Shown in pieces: positions 2,943 to 19,206 of a DNA stretch of 64,000 nucleotides (positions within the stretch are counted from its first letter, which is position 1; every line of letters starts with the position of its first letter). Location: NCBI RefSeq assembly GCF_004118265.1, contig NZ_SDHW01000003.1:124001-188000 (forward strand), in the 5' to 3' direction. The translations under genes were made by a program, and so were the position numbers. The notes below the pieces were generated by a model, which saw only the letters and a list, made by a program, of their open reading frames with translations, was not told the DNA's origin and did not search any database. This DNA comes from Lacibacter luteus. GTDB taxonomy: Bacteria > Bacteroidota > Bacteroidia > Chitinophagales > Chitinophagaceae.

Positions 2943-3512
2943 ATGAAAAAGGTAGCAATTATTCTCTCGGTATTTTTTTTAGCAACTGCATTTACAACCG
3001 TTGCAGTATGGAAAAATGATAAAGCACACTCACAGCTTGCATTCACCGTAACACACTTAGGTGTTTCAGATGTATCAGGAACCTTCAACGATTTTGATGT
3101 GGAAGTAAAATCAGCAAAGCCCGATTTCAGCGATGCAGAGTTTACGCTGTCTGCAAAAGTTGCATCGATCGATACTAGAATTGAAATGCGTGACAACCAT
3201 TTAAAGAGCCCTGATTTTTTTGACGCAACAAAATATCCTGAACTTACTTTCAAGAGCACCGGCATTAAAAACGTTGGTAAGAACAAATACAAACTCAGCG
3301 GTAACCTTACATTAAAAGGCATCAGCAAACCGGTTGTGTTAGACTTAGTGTACAGAGGTGTTGTTGAAAATCCAATGAGCAAAAAACAAACTGCAGGTTT
3401 CCAGTTATCTGGAGTTATTAAGCGTTCTGACTTTGCATTGGGTAGTGGTTTTCCTGCTCCAATGCTCAGCGATGAAGTAGTAATTAAAGCAGATGGCGAA
3501 TTTGCACAATAA
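2943..3512 (+). CDS. YceI family periplasmic protein
   Basis: A 189-aa protein with an N-terminal signal (MKKVAIILSVFFLATAFTTV), then the lipocalin-like YceI fold: WKNDKAHSQLAFTVTHLGVS, then SGTFNDFD, and the late LTLKGISKPVVLDL segment. YceI proteins bind long isoprenoid chains such as polyprenyl or quinone-like lipids in the periplasm. The length and motifs are normal. It sits 70 bases behind the oxidoreductase and 21 bases ahead of the DoxX gene, in the same orientation. Confidence 0.92.
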   Translation: MKKVAIILSVFFLATAFTTVAVWKNDKAHSQLAFTVTHLGVSDVSGTFNDFDVEVKSAKPDFSDAEFTLSAKVASIDTRIEMRDNHLKSPDFFDATKYPELTFKSTGIKNVGKNKYKLSGNLTLKGISKPVVLDLVYRGVVENPMSKKQTAGFQLSGVIKRSDFALGSGFPAPMLSDEVVIKADGEFAQ

Positions 3513-10714: not shown

Positions 10715-11323
10715 CTATTTAAAACTGGGTTTATGCTGCTCCGATGTGCTTTGAATATTGTGTAAAATTTCGTGTATAAACTGATCATCTTTTAAAGATA
10801 GTTTTACAACACAGCCGTACTGCAGCTTAAATACATTGAACGATTCGATTAAAGCAGTATTGGTAAGGTGGGAGAGAATGCTACGCAATACACCGCCATG
10901 CGATACAATGGCCGCATGTTCTTTCTGTGCAACAATTTTTTCAAAGATTGCCGTGGTGCGGGCCAATAGATCGAGATAGCTTTCGCCGCCGGGTATACGC
11001 ACATTTACAAAATCATTCATCCAGGGCATTACGACTTCTTTCGGCAGATCATCCCATTTCTTTAATTCCCATTCACCACAATTGATCTCCTTTAATTCAT
11101 CATGAAAAGAAATGCTGTGTGATGGAAATAAATGTTGTGCCAGTTTGCTGCAACGCTGTAACGGACTTGAATATACGTTTTGAATATGTGCAGGTAAATG
11201 TTCTTTGATGCGTGCAGCTTCGCTCAAAAAACTTTCTGTTACATCCAGATCGGCCTGGCCGTAACAGGTTCCTTTTTCTACATCGGGTGTGGTATGTCGT
11301 ATTAAATAGATTTCTGTACTCAT
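10715..11323 (-). CDS. cobC: Alpha-ribazole phosphatase-like histidine phosphatase
   Basis: A 202-aa histidine phosphatase. The catalytic RHTTP lies at residues 9-13 (IYLIRHTTPDVEKGTCYGQ), the second His is in AAIVSHGGVLRSIL, and GEWELKKWDDLP carries the acid residue region. The ribazole phosphatase assignment rests on the TPDVEKGTCYGQ continuation, common in CobC proteins, and on its place as last gene of the cobalamin operon after cobT and cobS. CobC removes the 5'-phosphate of the lower-ligand nucleotide or of adenosylcobalamin phosphate. The gap to cobS (102 bases) holds an inverted repeat. Confidence 0.85.
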   Translation of the reverse strand: MSTEIYLIRHTTPDVEKGTCYGQADLDVTESFLSEAARIKEHLPAHIQNVYSSPLQRCSKLAQHLFPSHSISFHDELKEINCGEWELKKWDDLPKEVVMPWMNDFVNVRIPGGESYLDLLARTTAIFEKIVAQKEHAAIVSHGGVLRSILSHLTNTALIESFNVFKLQYGCVVKLSLKDDQFIHEILHNIQSTSEQHKPSFK

Positions 11324-11367
11324 GTTAATTTTTTATCACCGCCAAGAAAAAAGAACGCTGAGGTGAT

Positions 11368-11415
11368 CGCAGAGAAAACAACTCTTCAACAAACTCCTTT
11401 TCTTCATTCTCTGCG
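11368..11415. repeat. Imperfect hairpin repeat between cobS and cobC
   Basis: CGCAGAGAA at 11368-11376 is complementary to TTCTCTGCG at 11407-11415, with a T/C-rich loop between. It fills much of the cobS-cobC gap and may form a hairpin in the operon mRNA. It is unrelated in sequence to the ATGAGT-type repeats elsewhere in the operon. Confidence 0.5.
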
Positions 11416-11425
11416 GTAAAGACTC

Positions 11426-12199
11426 TCACAAAAGTATGTATTCAATTTTCCAGTATGCTATCAGGCCAATGTAAAACAATACTTCAGTTACCTGCTGTGT
11501 TGCACCTAAACAATCGCCTGTATATCCACCGATCCATTTATGAAAATATCTTCTTAAGAAAAACGTGGCAAGTAAAGGAAGAATGAGTGCATATAAAATT
11601 TCAAAGCGCTGAAAAAACAATAAAGGCGCTAATCCAAACAGTACAGCCGGAATAATTTCATAAGCGGTGATTGATTTTGCCAATGGTTTTGCTTTGGCAT
11701 CATCATTCTCCCGAACATATTTGCTTGTGACAACAATAAGCACTGCACACAAGCGGGAGAAACTATGTGCAGCCAATAATACCATCCACATTAAACTGAA
11801 AGGAATTGAACTCAACGAAGTGTACTTCAACAACAGAATCAGGATCATGCCAATAACACCGTAAGCCCCCACACGACTATCCTTCATAATGGTGAGGATC
11901 TTCTCTTTTGTCCAGCCACCACCGAAAGCATCACATACATCTGCAAAACCATCTTCGTGAAAAGCACCTGTTGTTAATACGCCTGCGATCATTGATAATA
12001 AAATGGCAATGGGTGCACCAAGAAAAAACTCTGTGCCCATGTACAGCAACGCACAAATGCCGCCAACGATCCAACCGATGAATGGAAAGAAACGTGTTGC
12101 TTTGTTGAGGTACTCCGGATCATGCGTTACCCATTCGGGGCAAGGAATCCTGGTGTAAAACATTAAGGCGGTGAAAAATATTTCGATCTGCTTTTTCAT
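11426..12199 (-). CDS. cobS: Adenosylcobinamide-GDP ribazoletransferase
   Basis: A 257-aa membrane protein with about six helices. The opening FFTALMFYTRIPCPEW is the standard CobS N-terminus. GAFHEDGFADVCDAFGGGWTKEKIL then gives the conserved acidic active site, and DSRVGAYGVIG and GGYTGDCLGATQQVTE are further family motifs. CobS joins adenosylcobinamide-GDP with alpha-ribazole (or its phosphate) at the inner membrane, the last step of the nucleotide loop. Length and motifs are complete. It lies between cobT and cobC on the minus strand. Confidence 0.96.
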   Translation of the reverse strand: MKKQIEIFFTALMFYTRIPCPEWVTHDPEYLNKATRFFPFIGWIVGGICALLYMGTEFFLGAPIAILLSMIAGVLTTGAFHEDGFADVCDAFGGGWTKEKILTIMKDSRVGAYGVIGMILILLLKYTSLSSIPFSLMWMVLLAAHSFSRLCAVLIVVTSKYVRENDDAKAKPLAKSITAYEIIPAVLFGLAPLLFFQRFEILYALILPLLATFFLRRYFHKWIGGYTGDCLGATQQVTEVLFYIGLIAYWKIEYILL

Positions 12200-12241
12200 G
12201 TTGCTGCAAGATAAATGATTGTGCCGCTATTCGTATTAAAC

Positions 12242-12308
12242 GCCGGGAAGACGGTAAGGCTGGAAGAAAAAATATAGATTCATCTTTCCGTCTCCTCGTC
12301 TTCCCGGC
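12242..12308. repeat. Inverted repeat between cobT and cobS
   Basis: A perfect 12-bp inverted repeat, GCCGGGAAGACG at 12242-12253 and CGTCTTCCCGGC at 12297-12308, with a partly complementary interior. It occupies most of the 117-base gap and could fold into a long hairpin in the operon transcript. No T run follows on the minus strand, so it does not look like a classical terminator. Confidence 0.6.
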
Positions 12309-12316
12309 TAAGTAAA

Positions 12317-13336
12317 TTATTCTTTTCCACTCACCCCTGCACTTTCAAAACTCGCCATTTCATTTAAGAATGCAACAGCACTTTGCAAGATGGGTATAGC
12401 CAATGCAGCACCGGTACCTTCTCCCAGTCGCATGCCTAACTGCAGTATAGGTTTTGCATAGAGATGCTCTAACATTTTACGATGACCGTTTTCATCGGAG
12501 CAATGTGCAAACACACAATGATCAGCAATCGATTTGTTGTATTGTTTGGCAACAAGCAATGCTGCGGTTGCAATAAAACCATCAACCACAATGATCATGT
12601 TTAACTCTGCTGCTTTGTGGTAAGCGCCGGCCATCATAGCAATTTCAAAGCCGCCAATGCGGCAAAGCAATTGATGCGGCGTAATATCATAACGATTGAG
12701 TTCATGCAACTTGCTTACATCTTCCAATGTATCCAGCTTGCGTTGCAGTTGTTCATCTGTTGAACCTGTTCCTCTTCCCACACAATCTTTCAATGGAAGA
12801 TTTAATAAATGATGCATGATGAGTGAAGCAGAAGAAGTATTACCGATACCCATTTCGCCAAAGCCGATGGTATTGCATCCTTCATCAAACAATGTCTGCA
12901 CAATGCTTCTGCCTTTTTCAATCGCTGCATTTACCTCATCAATACTCATGGCATTGTATTCACTGTAATCGGTAGTACCATGATTGATCTTTGCATGAAT
13001 GATTGGGAGTGATACATCAAAATCAAAATTCACACCTGCATCAACAACTGTTAGACCAATGTTATGTTGTTTGGTAAATACATTAATAGCTGCACCACCG
13101 TTTACAAAATTCAAAACCATTTGTGCTGTTACAGCCTGCGGGTATGGATTTACTTTACCACTTGCTGCAATACCGTGATCACCTGCAAACACAACGATAT
13201 GAGGTTTGCTGATGCGTGGTGATAAACTATGTTGTATTGTGCCGATTTTTAATGCCAGCTCTTCCAGCATACCCAATGCACCAACAGGTTTTGTTTTATT
13301 GTTGATCTTATGTTGCAGTTGTTGTTCAATTGTCAT
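12317..13336 (-). CDS. cobT: Nicotinate-nucleotide--dimethylbenzimidazole phosphoribosyltransferase
   Basis: A 339-aa CobT. TKPVGALGMLEELALKIG is the N-terminal substrate segment. VFAGDHGIAASGKVNPYPQ, NVFTKQHNIGLTVVDAGVN and GFGEMGIGNTSSASL are core signatures, and the catalytic Glu is expected in the late MRLGEGTGAALA segment. CobT makes alpha-ribazole phosphate for the B12 lower ligand. The start at 13336 overlaps the stop of the preceding gene as ATGA, indicating translational coupling. A longer in-frame extension to 13366 is rejected for that reason. Confidence 0.96.
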   Translation of the reverse strand: MTIEQQLQHKINNKTKPVGALGMLEELALKIGTIQHSLSPRISKPHIVVFAGDHGIAASGKVNPYPQAVTAQMVLNFVNGGAAINVFTKQHNIGLTVVDAGVNFDFDVSLPIIHAKINHGTTDYSEYNAMSIDEVNAAIEKGRSIVQTLFDEGCNTIGFGEMGIGNTSSASLIMHHLLNLPLKDCVGRGTGSTDEQLQRKLDTLEDVSKLHELNRYDITPHQLLCRIGGFEIAMMAGAYHKAAELNMIIVVDGFIATAALLVAKQYNKSIADHCVFAHCSDENGHRKMLEHLYAKPILQLGMRLGEGTGAALAIPILQSAVAFLNEMASFESAGVSGKE

Positions 13337-14058
13337 GATGATGGATTTTGTAAAACAAGATCGCAAAACCAGAAACCTTTCGTTCCAACATCTGCAATTG
13401 GAGTAGGATGATCGCTGGTTTTTATTTCTAAAGCTTTGTAGGTTTTTTCTCCGGTTGCAACAGGTATTGGTTGTTTAAAGACGGGGCCACTGAAACAAAA
13501 AGAATGAAACTCACCGTTCTCACCACACGGATCAACGTTTGATGGCAGTTCGTTGATGAATTGCTGATCGATGGTTCTGCCAACCCAGCTTTCATCTAAA
13601 TAACCATCGTTGATGCAACACAAGACAGATTCAAATCCTTTTGTCACAAAATCGTTGATCATCCATTGTGTATCGGTTTTCCAGATGGGAAATACGCAAT
13701 GCATATCGAGTTCTTTCATTTTGTTTTCACGGTAAGCACGCAGGTCTTCTAAAAAAAGATCGCCATACAACACATGGTTGATGCCTTCTGCTTTTGCCTG
13801 CAGCAAAATAGTTTTCATCTGTTGTTCATATTCAGCATTGCTTGCTTCGTACACGTATGCTTTCAGTAACGGAATACCAATGGATGCAGCCTGTGCTTCA
13901 ATCAGCTCTTCCCGCACACCATGCATCGATAAACGTTTGTAATTGCCGTTGAAAGTGCTGAGCAAATATTTTACATCGTACACGCCTTCCTGCAACACTT
14001 TGTGCAACGCATAACTACTGTCTTTTCCTCCGCTCCAACAGAATATTGATGAGATCAT
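13333..14058 (-). CDS. Dph6-like adenine nucleotide alpha-hydrolase (ATP pyrophosphatase) in the B12 operon
   Basis: A 241-aa PP-loop ATPase. The ATP motif is CWSGGKDSSYALHK near the N-terminus, and HGVREELIEAQAASIGIP, HVLYGDLFLEDLR and GRTIDQQFI follow. This matches the diphthine--ammonia ligase/MJ0570-like family. Bacteria do not make diphthamide, so the eukaryotic reaction does not apply and the bacterial substrate is unknown. A frame reaching 14157 only adds repeat-derived residues (His/Ser/Ile-rich), so the start at 14058 is chosen. It is coupled to cobT by an ATGA overlap and preceded by cobU, suggesting an amidation or adenylation step linked to cobalamin salvage. Confidence 0.82.
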   Translation of the reverse strand: MISSIFCWSGGKDSSYALHKVLQEGVYDVKYLLSTFNGNYKRLSMHGVREELIEAQAASIGIPLLKAYVYEASNAEYEQQMKTILLQAKAEGINHVLYGDLFLEDLRAYRENKMKELDMHCVFPIWKTDTQWMINDFVTKGFESVLCCINDGYLDESWVGRTIDQQFINELPSNVDPCGENGEFHSFCFSGPVFKQPIPVATGEKTYKALEIKTSDHPTPIADVGTKGFWFCDLVLQNPSS

Positions 14059-14178
14059 TTTATGAGTGATGGATAATGAATGATGAGTTGTGAATGATGT
14101 ATGATGAATAATGAGTGATGAGTGATGAATAATGAGTTGGTTGTCCGCACTGATCACTCATTACTCATCACTCATTTA
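14059..14178. repeat. ATGAGT/GATGA hairpin repeat, copy A (cobU / Dph6-like gap)
   Basis: A long degenerate run of ATGAGT, GATGA and ATAATGA units (14061-14137) is followed by a spacer and a complementary arm CACTCATTACTCATCACTCA (from 14155). AATGAGTGATGAGT at 14110-14123 pairs perfectly with ACTCATCACTCATT at 14163-14176. The element fills the whole gap and supplies the TGA stop codon of cobU. Related copies lie at 16208, 16841 and 19041. Confidence 0.8.
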
Positions 14179-14675
14179 ATTTTCACTGGAATCCCGCTTA
14201 CCATCAACACTACTTCCTCCGCTTTTGCTGCAATGTATTGATTGGCCCAGCCCTGCAGATCGGTGAACTTGCGACCGATCTCAGTATCGGCATGCACGCC
14301 CATTCCTATTTCATTGCTGATGATAAAAAAAGTGCCGGACTTTGTATGCAATGCATCAATTTCTTTCTTCAACAGTTCAAGCGATGCATGAATATCACTC
14401 TTTGTATCCACAAAAAAATTAGTGAGCCATAAGGTAACACAGTCGATCATAGCCACACGGTTATCGATGGGCAATGCACTTACGTTGCGTTGTTCTTCAA
14501 AGTTGGTCCAGCGTTCATCACGATCGTTTTGATGACGCTTTACACGTTGTTCAAAATCGTCGTCCCACACTTTGGCCGTTGCGACATACACAGGATTATT
14601 GCTGAGTGCCAATACACGTTCCTGCGCATACCTGCTTTTACCACTGCGTGCACCACCTGTAATAAAAATGATCAT
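14172..14675 (-). CDS. cobU: Bifunctional adenosylcobinamide kinase / guanylyltransferase
   Basis: A 167-aa CobU. The P-loop is FITGGARSGKSRYAQE at the N-terminus, and VYVATAKVWDDDFEQRVKRH carries the active-site His of the guanylyl intermediate. DCVTLWLTNFF and ISNEIGMGVHADTEIGRKF complete the family pattern. The enzyme phosphorylates adenosylcobinamide and then adds GMP. The start at 14675 overlaps the stop of the DUF5522 gene as ATGA. A longer frame to 14726 would overlap that gene further and is rejected. The stop codon lies in the repeat element of copy A, a sign that the element has eaten into the gene end. Confidence 0.95.
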   Translation of the reverse strand: MIIFITGGARSGKSRYAQERVLALSNNPVYVATAKVWDDDFEQRVKRHQNDRDERWTNFEEQRNVSALPIDNRVAMIDCVTLWLTNFFVDTKSDIHASLELLKKEIDALHTKSGTFFIISNEIGMGVHADTEIGRKFTDLQGWANQYIAAKAEEVVLMVSGIPVKIK

Positions 14676-15055
14676 GCTGTTTGTTTTTTGAAACCGTAGG
14701 GACAATGCCTGCATCCGCTTTTGCAACAGTAACCTCTACGTAAATGATGCCAGGTTGTAAATACAAAATAACCGTTCTCCATATAATAATCGATTCCTTC
14801 CACCATCTGCTTGCCATTGCGTGGAAGATCTTTGGCTTTATTGTCGTTCAATGCTTTTTCAACCGTCATGTCTGCAACATACGCATCGATCTTTTCTTTT
14901 GTTGCCTGGTGAAGACATTGCGGACACATGCAATTGATCACCGGATCGGGAGTAAACAATGGCGGATAAGTATTGCACCAGCAACCTCCTTCGGATCCAT
15001 CGGAACCACAACCAAACTCAACGCCACATTTGCTGCATGTTTTTACTCTTGTCAT
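14672..15055 (-). CDS. Cysteine-rich CWC protein with C-terminal DUF5522-like domain
   Basis: A 127-aa protein in two parts. Residues ~5-52 hold the cysteine pattern KTCSKCGVEFGCG, then GGCWCNTYPP, then NCMCPQCL, as in the CWC family and suggestive of metal binding. Residues ~75-127 carry FTTWHHLRRGYCCKSGCRHC followed by PYGF, the DUF5522 signature with four further cysteines. No export signal is seen. The function is unknown. It is coupled to cobU by ATGA and lies one base from a second CWC gene, so both are part of the cobalamin operon. A role in cobalt or Fe-S handling is possible but not shown. Confidence 0.78.
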   Translation of the reverse strand: MTRVKTCSKCGVEFGCGSDGSEGGCWCNTYPPLFTPDPVINCMCPQCLHQATKEKIDAYVADMTVEKALNDNKAKDLPRNGKQMVEGIDYYMENGYFVFTTWHHLRRGYCCKSGCRHCPYGFKKQTA

Positions 15056-15056
15056 T

Positions 15057-15281
15057 TCAACGGTTACTGTATAGATCTTTCTGTTCTGTAAATAAAGTGT
15101 ACCTGCTTTTTAATTGCTGCAGACAATTGCGGCATAAACAATCGGAAAATTGTTTGGTAATAAATGCTTCTTCATCCACACTCAATTCAATACCGTAGCA
15201 TTGGCAGTTCGTAATATCGCCTACTCTGCATTCGAAAGGCGTATTACAACGTGGACAGTTTTTTTGTTCATGCTTGCACAT
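15057..15281 (-). CDS. Small cysteine-rich CWC family protein
   Basis: A 74-aa protein with nine cysteines arranged as CKHEQKNCPRCNTPFEC, NCQC, and DCLCRNCLQQL. The spacing parallels the first half of the neighbouring 127-aa gene, so the two look like paralogs. The pattern suggests one or two zinc or iron sites. It overlaps the end of the BtuF-like gene by 14 bases and ends one base before the next start, so its expression is tightly tied to the B12 operon. No function is known for the family. Confidence 0.78.
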   Translation of the reverse strand: MCKHEQKNCPRCNTPFECRVGDITNCQCYGIELSVDEEAFITKQFSDCLCRNCLQQLKSRYTLFTEQKDLYSNR

Positions 15282-16209
15282 GTTCCTGCGTGGTTGAAAA
15301 GTGAAAGTATTTTGTTTGCAAGTGTTTTGGTACTCGGAATAAGGAAGGATGAAACAATGCAGCTAATAATTCAATACCATCAACCAATGTAGATGCTGAT
15401 GGTTGTGTAAACAGATCATAATCGCAGATGTACACCGCATTTGTTTTTACGGCTTCCAGTTGCTGCCATTCTTTTTTTGATGTAAGCAGGTGCAATTCTT
15501 CTTTTGTACGTTCAACAGTAAAACCACATGGAGCAATTACTAATACTTCAGGATTGTATTTCACAATTTTGTCCCACTGTGTAACTATGCTATCGCCACC
15601 GGGATTGCTGAGCATATCAATACCACCGGCCTGTGCAACCTGAAAAGGGATCCAGTGACCGCAATTGTAAATAGGTTGTATCCATTCCATCAGCAGCACA
15701 CGTTTTAAGGGCATGTGATGGCGACGAAGTTTATCAAGAATATGTAAAGTACGTTTCTGTAAACCGGAGAGATAATGATAGGCTGCTGATTCATGACCGA
15801 GAGCTGTTGCAATGGTTACAGCTGTGTAATACACATCATCAAGTGTTTGCGGTGTAAGTGTAACCAGCTTTGGTTGTTTTTCAAGATTGGCAACCGCTGC
15901 AGCAGTACAGGCAGTATCGATCTGGCATACTTCACATACATCCTGTGTAAAGATCACATCGGGTTGTATGGTTTGAAGTATTTCTTCATCAACATAATAC
16001 AGGCTTCTGCCTTCTGCTTTGCTGGCCGAAAATATTTTATCGATCTCATCGCTGCTGTAATTTTTTCCTTCCATGACACAACGCACTACTTTTTGTTTTT
16101 CTTCTAATGCAGTGTGAGGACATTCAAACGTTACGCCATGCAGTAAGTGTTGCAAACCCATGTCGTAGATCATTTGCGTAGCGGCCGGTAAAAAGGAACA
16201 AGCTTTCAT
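15268..16209 (-). CDS. BtuF-like cobalamin-binding protein lacking a signal peptide
   Basis: A 313-aa two-lobed helical-backbone binding protein. ACSFLPAATQMIYDMGLQHLL is the first lobe, IQPDVIFTQDVCEVC and YNPEVLVIAPCGF are typical BtuF/TroA-like segments, and QPSASTLVDGIELLAALFHP ends the second lobe. The start at 16209 is used because the longer frame to 16287 is read through repeat sequence and overlaps the upstream gene. With this start no signal peptide or lipobox exists, which is unusual for an ABC binding protein. No BtuC or BtuD is found nearby. It may bind corrinoid in the cytosol or deliver it to the DUF6580 protein encoded upstream. Confidence 0.8.
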   Translation of the reverse strand: MKACSFLPAATQMIYDMGLQHLLHGVTFECPHTALEEKQKVVRCVMEGKNYSSDEIDKIFSASKAEGRSLYYVDEEILQTIQPDVIFTQDVCEVCQIDTACTAAAVANLEKQPKLVTLTPQTLDDVYYTAVTIATALGHESAAYHYLSGLQKRTLHILDKLRRHHMPLKRVLLMEWIQPIYNCGHWIPFQVAQAGGIDMLSNPGGDSIVTQWDKIVKYNPEVLVIAPCGFTVERTKEELHLLTSKKEWQQLEAVKTNAVYICDYDLFTQPSASTLVDGIELLAALFHPSLFRVPKHLQTKYFHFSTTQEHVQA

Positions 16210-16247
16210 GATGAGTGATGAATGATCAGTAATGAGTGTGAATACAA
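16207..16247. repeat. ATGAGT/GATGA repeat, copy C (DUF6580 / BtuF-like gap)
   Basis: ATGATGAGTGATGAATGATC followed by AGTAATGAGTG occupies 16208-16238, between the DUF6580 stop (16248) and the BtuF-like start (16209). It is a single arm of the element seen at 14059 and 16841 and begins within the start codon of the BtuF-like gene. Confidence 0.7.
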
Positions 16248-16838
16248 TTAAGCTGTTTGCAACGATGGCTTGTTTGCTTTCATCCATTCAAATGCACCAA
16301 ACATGATACCACTGTACACTAATGTGCCGATCAGAAAGTTTTTCATGTAAGGCGCACCTTGTGCATAGCATTTAATAAGACTTGCAAAACTGTGATCCAT
16401 TGTTTGGCCCGTAGTAATATCGGTGCAGCCAAACAGGAAAACACCAAAATCAACAACCAACCAGTAAACCAATGTTCCTGCAATACCCGTAAGCACAACA
16501 TTCTGTACACTTACTTTTTTCAGGAACAGTCTTGCCAATAAAACGATCAACACAAAACCACCATATACCCAATACCAGCTGCCATACATAATTCCATACT
16601 GTCCATCATAAACAAATATGTTAATGATGAGATCACTAAGCAATAAAGTAAGCAAGGGGAAACCAAATGCTTTCCAGTGTTTGCTGAAATAAGCACCGCC
16701 AAACAAGCCCATTGCACCAATAGGTGTAAAGTTGCTCAACGGTCCGAGTTGGGCTGCATTGGGAATACGTAAAGCCGCAACAGCAATCATAATGATTGCC
16801 AGGATTGCAAAACGGGGATTGATTTTTTGTGTTGACAT
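16248..16838 (-). CDS. DUF6580 family putative transport protein
   Basis: A 196-aa membrane protein with about five to six helices. It contains LGPLSNFTPIGAMGLFGGAY near the start and PLLTLLLSDLIINIFVY, resembling the DUF6580 group of small putative transporters. Such proteins look like ECF-type substrate-binding membrane subunits, but that is an analogy. It follows btuB in the cobalamin operon and precedes the BtuF-like gene. It is therefore the best candidate here for moving a corrinoid across the inner membrane. No ECF ATPase is present in the window. Confidence 0.75.
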   Translation of the reverse strand: MSTQKINPRFAILAIIMIAVAALRIPNAAQLGPLSNFTPIGAMGLFGGAYFSKHWKAFGFPLLTLLLSDLIINIFVYDGQYGIMYGSWYWVYGGFVLIVLLARLFLKKVSVQNVVLTGIAGTLVYWLVVDFGVFLFGCTDITTGQTMDHSFASLIKCYAQGAPYMKNFLIGTLVYSGIMFGAFEWMKANKPSLQTA

Positions 16839-16840
16839 AT

Positions 16841-16903
16841 GATAATGAGTAATGAATGATGAGTAATGAGTGGGTTCAACTGATCACTCATTACTCATCA
16901 TTG
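16841..16903. repeat. ATGAGT/GATGA hairpin repeat, copy B (btuB / DUF6580 gap)
   Basis: This is the cleanest copy. AATGATGAGTAATGAGTG at 16855-16872 pairs perfectly over 18 bp with CACTCATTACTCATCATT at 16885-16902, with a 12-base loop. It fills the gap between the btuB stop (16908) and the DUF6580 start (16838). Confidence 0.85.
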
Positions 16904-16907
16904 GTTA

Positions 16908-18830
16908 TTAAAATTGAAAGCTTACGCCTCCTGTTACATTAAACTTGCGACTGTTATAGCCGGGAACATCATAATACACCTGATCTGTGATATTACGAAG
17001 ATCAACAAATAAACGCAGGTTTTTTGTTGCCTGATAACCGGTGTAAAAATCGATCGTGTAATAAGACGGCATTTGCGCAGGTCCCGGATCATAAGCACCT
17101 TTTAATCTTGAGCTGATGAAACGGAACGAAGGCATTAAGGTTAATCCTTTTACAGGTTCAAGTGTAAGTACACTGTTAAAACTGAAATTAGGACGACGAT
17201 ACAGGTTCTTCACTTTTACATTATTGTTTTTTCCTTCGCCATCAATATAAGTGAAGTTGTTTGTCCATGTGCCGATCTTACCGAGACCAATACTACTTTC
17301 CACTTCAAAACCATAATCGTGTTGTTCATCACGGTTGATATAGTAACTTTCCCATGAAGGACTGGTATAGAAAATGATGAGGTTTTTAATGTCTCGTTTG
17401 AATGCAACAAAACGGATTGCGTTTTTCCTGTCTGCACTAAACGATTGCACACCCACTTCGTAGTTCTGTGTTGCTTCAGGTTTCAGTTCCTTGTTTCCAT
17501 ACTCACTATACAGTTGGTAAAGTGAAGGAATTTTATAACCCGAAGAAATGTTTACAAACACTCTTGTTTTATTATCAATGTTATAAGATGGATTGAATGT
17601 GTACGTTGCATTTGTTCCATAAATGCTGTGGCTGTTTACACGAAAACCGGCTTCCATATTAAACCCGGCAAGTTCAGTTGCCAGTAACGAGGCATAAAAC
17701 GAAAAGTTATTTGCTTTTGCTGAATCGCCTAAAGCTGTTTCATAAGGGCCAAAGACACTGATGCTTTTGTACGATTGCGTTGTGTTTTGTGCAATGTTTT
17801 GTAAACCTGCTACTAACGACAACTGATCGATAAAGCGATAACTGCCGAATAACTCTGTAATACTGCTGTTACCTTCGTATGAACCTTTTGAATATTTAGC
17901 AAAGCCACCAACACTTGCGCTGTCATCTACATACAATCTTGTATTGTTAAGTAAATTTTGTGATAAAGTAAGATTCAGTTTATTGCCTTGGTACAGAAAT
18001 GAAAGTCCGTTGTTCCTGTTCTTTTGTGTTACGTTATTATCTGCATCATCAGCATAAGCACCTGCATCAATACCATTTTTATATTGACCAAAATTGCTGA
18101 ATCCTTTTACTGCAAAATGTTTATTGAAATCGTACCGAAGGTTGGCTACGAAGTTGTTTTGCTTAAATCCGTCTTTATCAAAATTCTTTGTACCGGTTGT
18201 ATCCTGTGCAGCAGAGAATCCTTTACTGTCTGTAAAATTGTAATTGAGGTTGTAAGAAAATGCATTCAGCTTTCCACCAACACCGGCATTTGCACGGAGT
18301 GTGTTGTAGCTTCCATAACTCAGCAAACCATTTACTTCAGCTTTTTTGCTGCCGCCTTTTTTGGTAATGATATTAATAACACCTGCAACAGCATCGCTTC
18401 CCCATAAAGTACTTTGTGCGCCTTTTAAAATTTCGATACGTTCTACCATACCTGTGCTGATATGGTTCAGGTCAAATGCATTGTTCGATTGCGATGCATC
18501 ACCTACAGGAACACCATCGATCAGAATCAACACATTTCCACTTGTTGCACCACGGAAATAAATATCCTGGTTGGTACCAAGTGTGTTGTTTGCACCATTG
18601 ATGAATACACTGGCCTGTTGGTTGATAATTTCAGAAACGGTACGGCCTGCATTACGTTGAATGGTTGCCTGATCGATAATGGCTATCACTTTACCTGTGG
18701 CACGTTGTTTTTGTGCAATACGATTGGCGGTTACAAATACTTCGCCTAACGATTTTGCAGTTGTGTCCTGGGCATTTAGCTGACTGCTGAAAAATAATCC
18801 GGCAGCCACTACAAGAAAATTCTTTTTCAT
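16908..18830 (-). CDS. btuB: TonB-dependent vitamin B12 receptor
   Basis: A 640-aa outer-membrane receptor with a signal peptide (MKKNFLVVAAGLFFSSQLNA). The plug starts at GEVFVTANRIAQKQ and includes IYFRGATSGNVLILIDGVPV and RIEILKGAQSTLWGSDAVAG. The ~500-residue barrel ends in GGVSFQF with a terminal Phe. No carboxypeptidase-like regulatory domain precedes the plug. The length (~610-650) and compact plug fit BtuB. The cobalamin riboswitch immediately upstream and the cob genes downstream make B12 or cobinamide the likely substrate. It heads the ten-gene minus-strand operon. Confidence 0.92.
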   Translation of the reverse strand: MKKNFLVVAAGLFFSSQLNAQDTTAKSLGEVFVTANRIAQKQRATGKVIAIIDQATIQRNAGRTVSEIINQQASVFINGANNTLGTNQDIYFRGATSGNVLILIDGVPVGDASQSNNAFDLNHISTGMVERIEILKGAQSTLWGSDAVAGVINIITKKGGSKKAEVNGLLSYGSYNTLRANAGVGGKLNAFSYNLNYNFTDSKGFSAAQDTTGTKNFDKDGFKQNNFVANLRYDFNKHFAVKGFSNFGQYKNGIDAGAYADDADNNVTQKNRNNGLSFLYQGNKLNLTLSQNLLNNTRLYVDDSASVGGFAKYSKGSYEGNSSITELFGSYRFIDQLSLVAGLQNIAQNTTQSYKSISVFGPYETALGDSAKANNFSFYASLLATELAGFNMEAGFRVNSHSIYGTNATYTFNPSYNIDNKTRVFVNISSGYKIPSLYQLYSEYGNKELKPEATQNYEVGVQSFSADRKNAIRFVAFKRDIKNLIIFYTSPSWESYYINRDEQHDYGFEVESSIGLGKIGTWTNNFTYIDGEGKNNNVKVKNLYRRPNFSFNSVLTLEPVKGLTLMPSFRFISSRLKGAYDPGPAQMPSYYTIDFYTGYQATKNLRLFVDLRNITDQVYYDVPGYNSRKFNVTGGVSFQF

Positions 18831-18944
18831 CTTTTTGAAAAAAGGGTTTTGTTGTGACTGCTTTCAGAAAAAGAATTAGAAAATATAAAAGCGATGTGCC
18901 GTTACATCTCCTGCCTTTCACCCGAAAGCAAATGATTAATGAAA

Positions 18945-19197
18945 TAGTATCGGCAGGTCTTCTGGCTTGTTCGCTGTTGAGCACCTTCCCATTCATGCGC
19001 CAAACAGCTTGCATGAACAGTGGTCTGTAGAAATCAACAGGATGAGTGATGAATGAAGAATAATGAGTGCGGAACCGCTTTACTCATCATTCATTACTGA
19101 TTACTCATCATTAGAACTTACAGCTACGGGGATAGCGCCGGATTTGCACCGGACTTCCCTTTTAATCCCGGCTATGACGCCGGAAACCGCTACGGCA
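18945..19197 (-). ncRNA. Cobalamin riboswitch with an inserted repeat hairpin
   Basis: On the minus strand the core reads GGGAAGTCCGGTGCAAATCC then GGCGCTATCCCCGTAGCTGTAA (19117-19160 region), matching the B12-box/core. The 3' part AGCCAGAAGACCTGCCGATA (18949-18968) matches the closing segment. Between them a conserved ACCACTG...ATGGGAAGG section (18984-19024) is kept. A downstream GGCAGG (18911-18916) could pair with CCTGCC for switching. The switch controls btuB and, through it, the B12 operon. An ATGAGT/GATGA element of ~74 bases sits at 19041-19114, in a peripheral loop that is normally short, so the core is preserved but enlarged. Confidence 0.93.
19041..19114. repeat. ATGAGT/GATGA hairpin repeat, copy in the riboswitch
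   Basis: GATGAGTGATGAATGAAGAA then TAATGAGTGCGG (19041-19072) is followed by CCGCTTTACTCATCATTCAT and TACTGATTACTCATCATTAG. The two arms are roughly three-quarters complementary, closing on GCGGAACCGC. The sequence family is the same as in three gaps of the downstream operon. Confidence 0.85.
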
Positions 19198-19198
19198 G

Positions 19199-19206
19199 CA
19201 AAAGTA
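19199..19206 (-). promoter_or_regulatory. Bacteroidota -7 element ahead of the cobalamin riboswitch
   Basis: The minus strand reads TACTTTTG, a perfect TAnnTTTG match. Transcription would start a few bases downstream, right at the beginning of the riboswitch. It is the probable promoter of the B12 operon. Confidence 0.6.

Follow-up and report, generated by a model that had tools for sequence, protein, structure and literature searches.

A candidate peripheral arm made of dispersed heptanucleotide repeats in a cobalamin riboswitch of Lacibacter luteus

Riboswitches are usually viewed as conserved folds that carry idle variable loops. The cobalamin riboswitch (RF00174) is described with "variable insertions" (Barrick and Breaker 2007, PMC2258182), and the repeat arm reported here, placed at a permissive junction, agrees with that description; however, neither an origin of such insertions in dispersed repeats, nor the swapping of repeat classes, nor the exchange of a whole periphery is described in the accessible part of that source. 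The closest parallel is the P6b hairpin of the Nostoc trnL intron, a variable hairpin in a structured RNA that is formed by the pairing of degenerate 7-nt repeats; its site is occupied by two repeat classes (Class 1 and Class 2), as is that of the arms described below; that case differs in being a cyanobacterial intron and, in the accessible part of the account, does not involve a riboswitch (PMC3488679). The STRR repeats in cyanobacterial RNase P RNA (Vioque 1997) are likewise short tandem repeats in a structured RNA gene, although the RNA and the phylum are others. In pneumococci, a BOX element, which is a dispersed structured repeat, lies between two T-box riboswitches in a leader judged by the authors to be still functional; the BOX separates two aptamers, whereas the arm considered here lies inside the peripheral domain of one (PMC3049150). 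The TAACTGA heptamers of Beggiatoaceae, cyanobacteria and five Bacteroidetes are mostly intergenic and occur, as here, in some Bacteroidetes, but they represent another heptamer, are arranged as direct repeats and, in the main genome, lie mostly just upstream of start codons, with riboswitches unmentioned in the accessible part of the paper (PMC4679880). Among the matches listed in searches of the open-access literature, the titles and abstracts contained no report of a riboswitch arm built from dispersed heptamer repeats.

The window analyzed here, a stretch of 64,000 nt from Lacibacter luteus (contig NZ_SDHW01000003.1, positions 124,001 to 188,000), belongs to a genome of 28 contigs and 5.07 Mb. 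By its sequence features, the element on the minus strand (Table 1) is a genuine cobalamin riboswitch: it scores above the curated cut-off of RF00174 over model positions 1-189 (cmscan, E 2e-18), its core is present together with the B12-box segment AGCCAGAAGACCTGCC that closes the aptamer, and it is located upstream of the B12-related genes for a btuB-like receptor, cobU, cobT, cobS and cobC. In this respect, the first-pass annotation, which had recognized a real switch with its core and closing segment, was correct. The order and common strand of the genes from the btuB-like receptor to cobC point to one putative operon. The possible hairpin that directly follows the aptamer is probably the regulatory hairpin (P13), and the motif CTTTCGG is found within 60 nt after all 20 B12 switches identified in the genus.

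Table 1. Positions of the riboswitch, its peripheral elements, the neighboring genes and the dispersed repeats in the window
Feature	Position	Strand	Evidence
Cobalamin riboswitch aptamer (RF00174)	18935..19206	-	cmscan, 81.2 bits (gathering cut-off 31.5)
Hairpin arm of heptamer repeats (ATGAGTN class), inserted between peripheral stems 1 and 2	19041..19113	-	base pairing, lag-7 score, fold
Peripheral stem 1, 5' strand GTTC (partner 18969-18972)	19114..19117	-	base pairing
Peripheral stem 1, 3' strand GAAC	18969..18972	-	base pairing
Peripheral stem 2, 5' strand CTGTTGA (partner 18974-18980)	19034..19040	-	base pairing
Peripheral stem 2, 3' strand TCAACAG	18974..18980	-	base pairing
Possible hairpin (GCTTTCGGGTGAAAGGC) directly after the aptamer	18913..18929	-	sequence
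btuB-like TonB-dependent receptor, first gene downstream of the switch	16908..18830	-	TIGR01779 E 7.6e-67, below its curated cut-off
Remaining genes of the putative B12 operon: DUF6580, periplasmic binding protein, cobU, Dph6-like, cobT, cobS, cobC	10718..16838	-	gene searches
Dispersed ATGAGT hairpin, gap between btuB and the DUF6580 gene	16841..16907	.	repeat matches
Dispersed ATGAGT element, gap separating the DUF6580 and binding-protein genes	16207..16238	.	repeat matches
Dispersed ATGAGT element (both tandem and inverted), gap separating cobU from the Dph6-like gene	14058..14176	.	repeat matches

The arm is an insert of 73 nt, bounded on the basis of pairing by the stems GTTC/GAAC and CTGTTGA/TCAACAG, and corresponds to what is understood as a variable insertion, that is, a non-conserved stem-loop outside the core, between peripheral stems 1 and 2. 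It is predicted to fold as a hairpin of -24.9 kcal/mol (z = -3.98), a value for which none of 200 shuffles was as good, with the pairs confined to 19041-19109; its 7-nt periodicity, expressed as a lag-7 score, was reached by none of 500 dinucleotide shuffles. The earlier proposal of an ATGAGT repeat hairpin in a non-conserved peripheral site is in agreement with these data, and its extent (19041-19114) is supported in part by the covariance model: cmscan leaves unmodelled an insert of 107 nt (19099-18993) that includes most of this stretch, whereas 19100-19114 are aligned to the RF00174 model, mostly with low posterior.

The same repeat family recurs at three gaps within the downstream gene cluster, as the first-pass annotation had noted, and it is dispersed through the genome. 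Pattern RATGAGTRATGAATRATGA, with two mismatches allowed, has 100 genome matches versus five for the reversed pattern, and a second class, represented by pattern RGTGAATRGTGAATRGTGA, has 78 versus eight in the control, both counts being pattern matches of which adjacent ones may share one element; a pattern slightly different from RATGAGTRATGAATRATGA has 106 matches versus 20. Chance similarity as the source of the arm and its family is ruled out by the shuffles and by these reversed-pattern controls. The dispersed copies avoid open reading frames, with one of 19 places inside an ORF of at least 150 amino acids and a mean ORF cover of the loci of 76%, and the combination of 7-nt periodicity with many intergenic genome copies is that of dispersed heptanucleotide repeats of the STRR type. 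The repeat sequences of the Nostoc trnL intron probably differ from the heptamers of the window arm. The possibility that the dispersed copies are parts of other known RNAs was rejected, since an Rfam search of the 19 loci detected only a tRNA about 0.4 kb and a TPP switch about 1.1 kb from an element. The longest ORFs at 13333-14157 and 15268-16287 extend into repeats and show an apparent artificial N-terminus of the LIIHHSSLIIHH type; by eye, their likely true starts are near 14058 and 16209, respectively.

The first-pass annotation had described such a repeat, in a switch and in the operon it regulates, as uncommon; it is not a peculiarity of this switch or of this gene cluster. Within the genus, 20 B12 switches were recovered from 14 genomes by a search that may lose weak switches, and 11 of them carry a heptamer arm of 62-79 nt, in every case between the same two stems; six are of the ATGAGT class (one of them, G003a, eroded) and five of the GTGAATG class. 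An arm is also present in the second B12 switch of the window genome (L081, G000:C24:315460-321729, riboswitch at 3001-3270 on the minus strand), upstream of an nrdB gene assigned by Pfam, and this ATGAGT arm is 81% identical to that of the window. The switches are of two types: those of type A precede a btuB-like gene, those of type B ribonucleotide reductase genes, and both arm classes are found in both types. The objection foreseen in the first-pass annotation, that relatives might carry another sequence of similar length at this place, holds by half: it applies to the five of the 11 arms that belong to the other heptamer class, and not to the nine of the 20 switches without a heptamer arm, whose segments are shorter (26-53 nt versus 84-100).

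The kinship of the arms is also informative. In BLAST comparisons with the genus, the window arm matches four other riboswitch arms best (E 6e-28 to 2e-16), and the first dispersed copy follows at 3e-11; the GTGAATG arm of G013 similarly retrieves the other four arms of its class (4e-26 to 4e-13) before dispersed copies, which start at 2e-7; the eroded arm of G003a, with E 6.5e-6 against the window arm, ranks below many dispersed copies. Since they are closer to each other than to the dispersed copies, ten of the 11 arms look inherited with their switch and not re-inserted each time, and this kinship, together with the arms in the second switch and in 11 of the 20 genus switches, excludes a lone recent insertion in the window switch. 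The repeat load of the genomes and the presence of the arm roughly go together within the genus: the genomes with few ATGAGT repeats (G001, G004, G005, G007, G008 and G010, with 0-9 matches, none clearly above control) have no arm, although G012 (77 ATGAGT matches), G010 (38 GTGAATG, control 19) and G008 (23, control 1) are arm-less despite their repeats.

Comparisons between close relatives point to mosaic switches. In G011 and G012, the 5' cores are 99% and the 130 nt beginning at the B12 box 98% identical, whereas the peripheries share 46%, and the periphery of G012 (L079) is 87% identical to that of G010a. In the pair G002b and G006a, the core (99%) and the downstream sequence (94%) contrast in the same way with a periphery of 45% identity, and the G006a periphery (L070) shares 82% identity with the periphery of L234, which belongs to another genus; for reference, random periphery pairs outside the genus have a mean identity of 55%, with the 95th percentile at 68%. 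The switches of G013 and G002a, whose 5' cores are 98% identical, have arms of different classes, and the gap after the btuB gene of G013 contains an ATGAGT-class repeat, unlike its GTGAATG arm. Whole peripheral domains thus appear, from their sequences, to have been swapped between switches, and homologous recombination between the conserved core blocks would be the route of exchange.

The position of the arm was compared in a wider set of switches. From 115 extracted peripheries, of which at least two (at L184 and L022) are spurious starts, 12 without the landmark and seven without a stem by the simple rule were set aside. Heptamer arms are present in 14 of the remaining 96, occupying 61-90 nt on the 5' side between stems 1 and 2; in the other 82 switches, the stem 1/stem 2 junction holds 4-91 nt (median 14, quartiles 7 and 24, the value of 91 coming from a spurious extraction), often as a small unrelated hairpin. 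On the 3' side, 12 of the 14 switches with heptamer arms and 61 of the other 82 have a gap of 1 nt or less, and this arrangement, with the arm on the 5' side, indicates a three-way junction at a permissive site. Among 103 switches with clear landmarks, a set enriched for the genus of the window and for long switches, 7-periodicity was detected in 16 junctions (each matched by at most four of 500 shuffles), in no terminal loop and in no return strand, and in three cases in the 150 nt upstream.

Other arrangements were also observed. L019 (G016) has a heptamer array not in the junction but immediately before the aptamer, within the 150 nt upstream of CTGTRA, in a genome with 949 heptamer matches (control 20). 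L026 and L215 are B12 switches expanded elsewhere in the periphery, by a 3' gap of 22 nt and a long terminal loop, respectively, with sequences that are non-heptamer by eye, and in L100 (G027) the same junction is filled by a long, nearly perfect non-heptamer hairpin. CCCC/GGGG palindromes are also found at this junction in L020/L076 (G010a), L079 (G012) and others. The palindrome CCCCTNAAGGGGA, present in 12 of the 14 genus genomes with up to 24 matches and none for the reversed control, is itself dispersed (17 matches in G012 and ten in G010, control 0) and lies inside the G010a and G012 switches.

Taken together, these results suggest that the arm is probably a variable insertion that the switch tolerates, one that was captured from dispersed repeats, is inherited and can be exchanged by recombination, and that it is most likely near-neutral, although its near-neutrality is something that we infer. 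A heptanucleotide-repeat palindrome dispersed in the genome would supply an optional peripheral hairpin of the cobalamin riboswitch, seated in a permissive three-way junction of the peripheral domain and remote from the binding core. This hairpin is predicted to form largely on its own; given this location and this predicted independence, the switch most likely still works with the arm. In our judgement, the arm would have been captured one or a few times in the genus and then inherited with the switch, and it may have been exchanged between switches within a peripheral domain that recombines and has conserved blocks of the core on either side.

Folding predictions are consistent with an autonomous hairpin, with some reservations. 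In whole-switch ensembles of the ten switches folded (of the 11), the arm bases have 20.5-24.5 expected pairs inside the arm versus 1.0-7.4 outside. In the thermodynamic model, adding the arm lowers the pair probability of peripheral stem 2 from 0.80 to 0.02 in the window switch, from 0.98 to 0.01 in G002b and from 0.98 to 0.44 in G009b, so that this stem is displaced in two and weakened in one of the ten switches and folding may be affected by the arm; the model is blind to tertiary contacts and ligand, and its placement of the closing stem is poor in many switches whether or not the arm is included, which makes it weak evidence either way.

An alternative, which we consider unlikely, is that the arm has been domesticated for a benefit to the switch, such as stabilizing the peripheral domain, insulating it during transcription, or protecting the leader from an RNase or exposing it to one. 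The hairpin is kept across the classes, and consensus folding yields 27 pairs among five ATGAGT arms, 23 among five of the GTGAATG class and ten among all 11, three of the latter being changed on both sides and two of them from A-U to G-C between classes; in addition, an apical pair covaries within the GTGAATG class, and other heptamers fill the junction in switches of several genera. The 5' strand of the ATGAGT arm is near-invariant across five switches of two gene types, which could reflect constraint and not neutrality. Nevertheless, palindromes pair by construction, so pairing and covariation are weak evidence for selection, and the covariation term amounts to an unfavorable +1 (ATGAGT), -0.24 (GTGAATG) and -0.96 kcal/mol (all 11 arms). 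Moreover, the switches that dispense with a heptamer arm include G012 and G006a, close relatives of arm-bearing ones, and the arm of G003a has eroded; both observations speak against a domesticated arm.

The occurrence of similar hairpins beyond the genus bears on the mode of insertion. Heptamer hairpins of other classes are present in the same region in several further genera of Chitinophagaceae, namely in G026 (GATTCAC units), G063 and G109 (GTGAATG), G107 (GTCGATT) and, in short form, G020, as well as in the Chitinophagaceae MAGs L183 (AAAAGTC/TTTCACC) and L188 (GTGAGTG); their placement between the stems was established by rule for L188, G107 and G109, and by eye for L183, G063, G020 (no stem by rule) and G026 (no CCACTG landmark). 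The genome of L188 has 209 matches to its own arm class, with a control of 95 inflated by the near-palindromic unit, and that of L183 has 30 versus 7; heptamer arms are absent in L185 (18 heptamer matches versus 5), L181 (0 versus 2) and L182 (3 versus 2).

The relation with genome load was assessed by considering as loaded those genomes with at least 20 matches to GTGAANNGTGAANNGTGA and three times the control, by which the repeat-rich G064 (556 versus 201) does not count as loaded. In a first sample, enriched for long switches, arms were detected in seven of 20 loaded genomes versus one of 40 others (p 0.0013), and in five of 18 versus one of 40 when the genus of the window was excluded (p 0.009). 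The association was weaker in a second sample, drawn from the 150 strongest matches for 107 genomes of the family, which comprised 95 genomes and 125 extracted switches (none of the 25 failed extractions scores 7 or more over the stretch checked): five of 26 genomes loaded with GTGAA-type repeats versus one of 64 others (p = 0.007), and three of 24 versus one of 64 without the genus (p = 0.06). The sole positive outside loaded genomes in both tests, L231, represents a CCCC/GGGG palindrome instead of an array of heptamers; in the second sample, the clear heptamer arm of L223 (8 of 500 shuffles) fell below the threshold, and the long switch of G026 was absent.

These data could be read as the signature of an active mobile repeat that prefers this junction, with heptamers copied in repeatedly through recognition of the hairpin or of the junction, as might be suggested by the finding that several genera have filled one junction with different heptamer classes and by the tie between arm presence and genome load. 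We regard this as improbable, because the closeness of ten genus arms to each other makes recent insertion unnecessary, the association with load has p = 0.06 once the genus is removed, and the site bias is equally well explained if insertions survive only where the site is permissive. Furthermore, a spread into riboswitches of every kind was rejected: TPP switches (41 matches of 92-145 nt in 22 genomes) were heptamer-free by eye in the eight read. That the switch is a decaying or non-functional copy marked by the repeat, as the modelled displacement of stem 2 might imply, is highly improbable in view of the high Rfam score, the intact core and B12 box, the CTTTCGG motif conserved after all the genus switches, the open B12 genes downstream and the retention of heptamer arms in several species.

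With a tolerated insertion of dispersed repeats as the favored reading, the variable part of this riboswitch has a traceable origin and changes class between close relatives, and its whole periphery appears to be mobile. The Bacteroidota riboswitch described here joins the cyanobacterial cases in which heptamer repeats are found in structured RNAs, and the natural pairs of switches with the same core and a different periphery allow direct testing of the role of the peripheral domain in B12 riboswitches. A bolder extension, possible but doubtful, is that the junction is a recurrent acceptor for dispersed heptamer hairpins across the Chitinophagaceae, in which lineages have used different classes, the arms have been kept as useful to the switch and the periphery recombines as a cassette; if this were true, selfish repeats would have been repeatedly reused as riboswitch parts.
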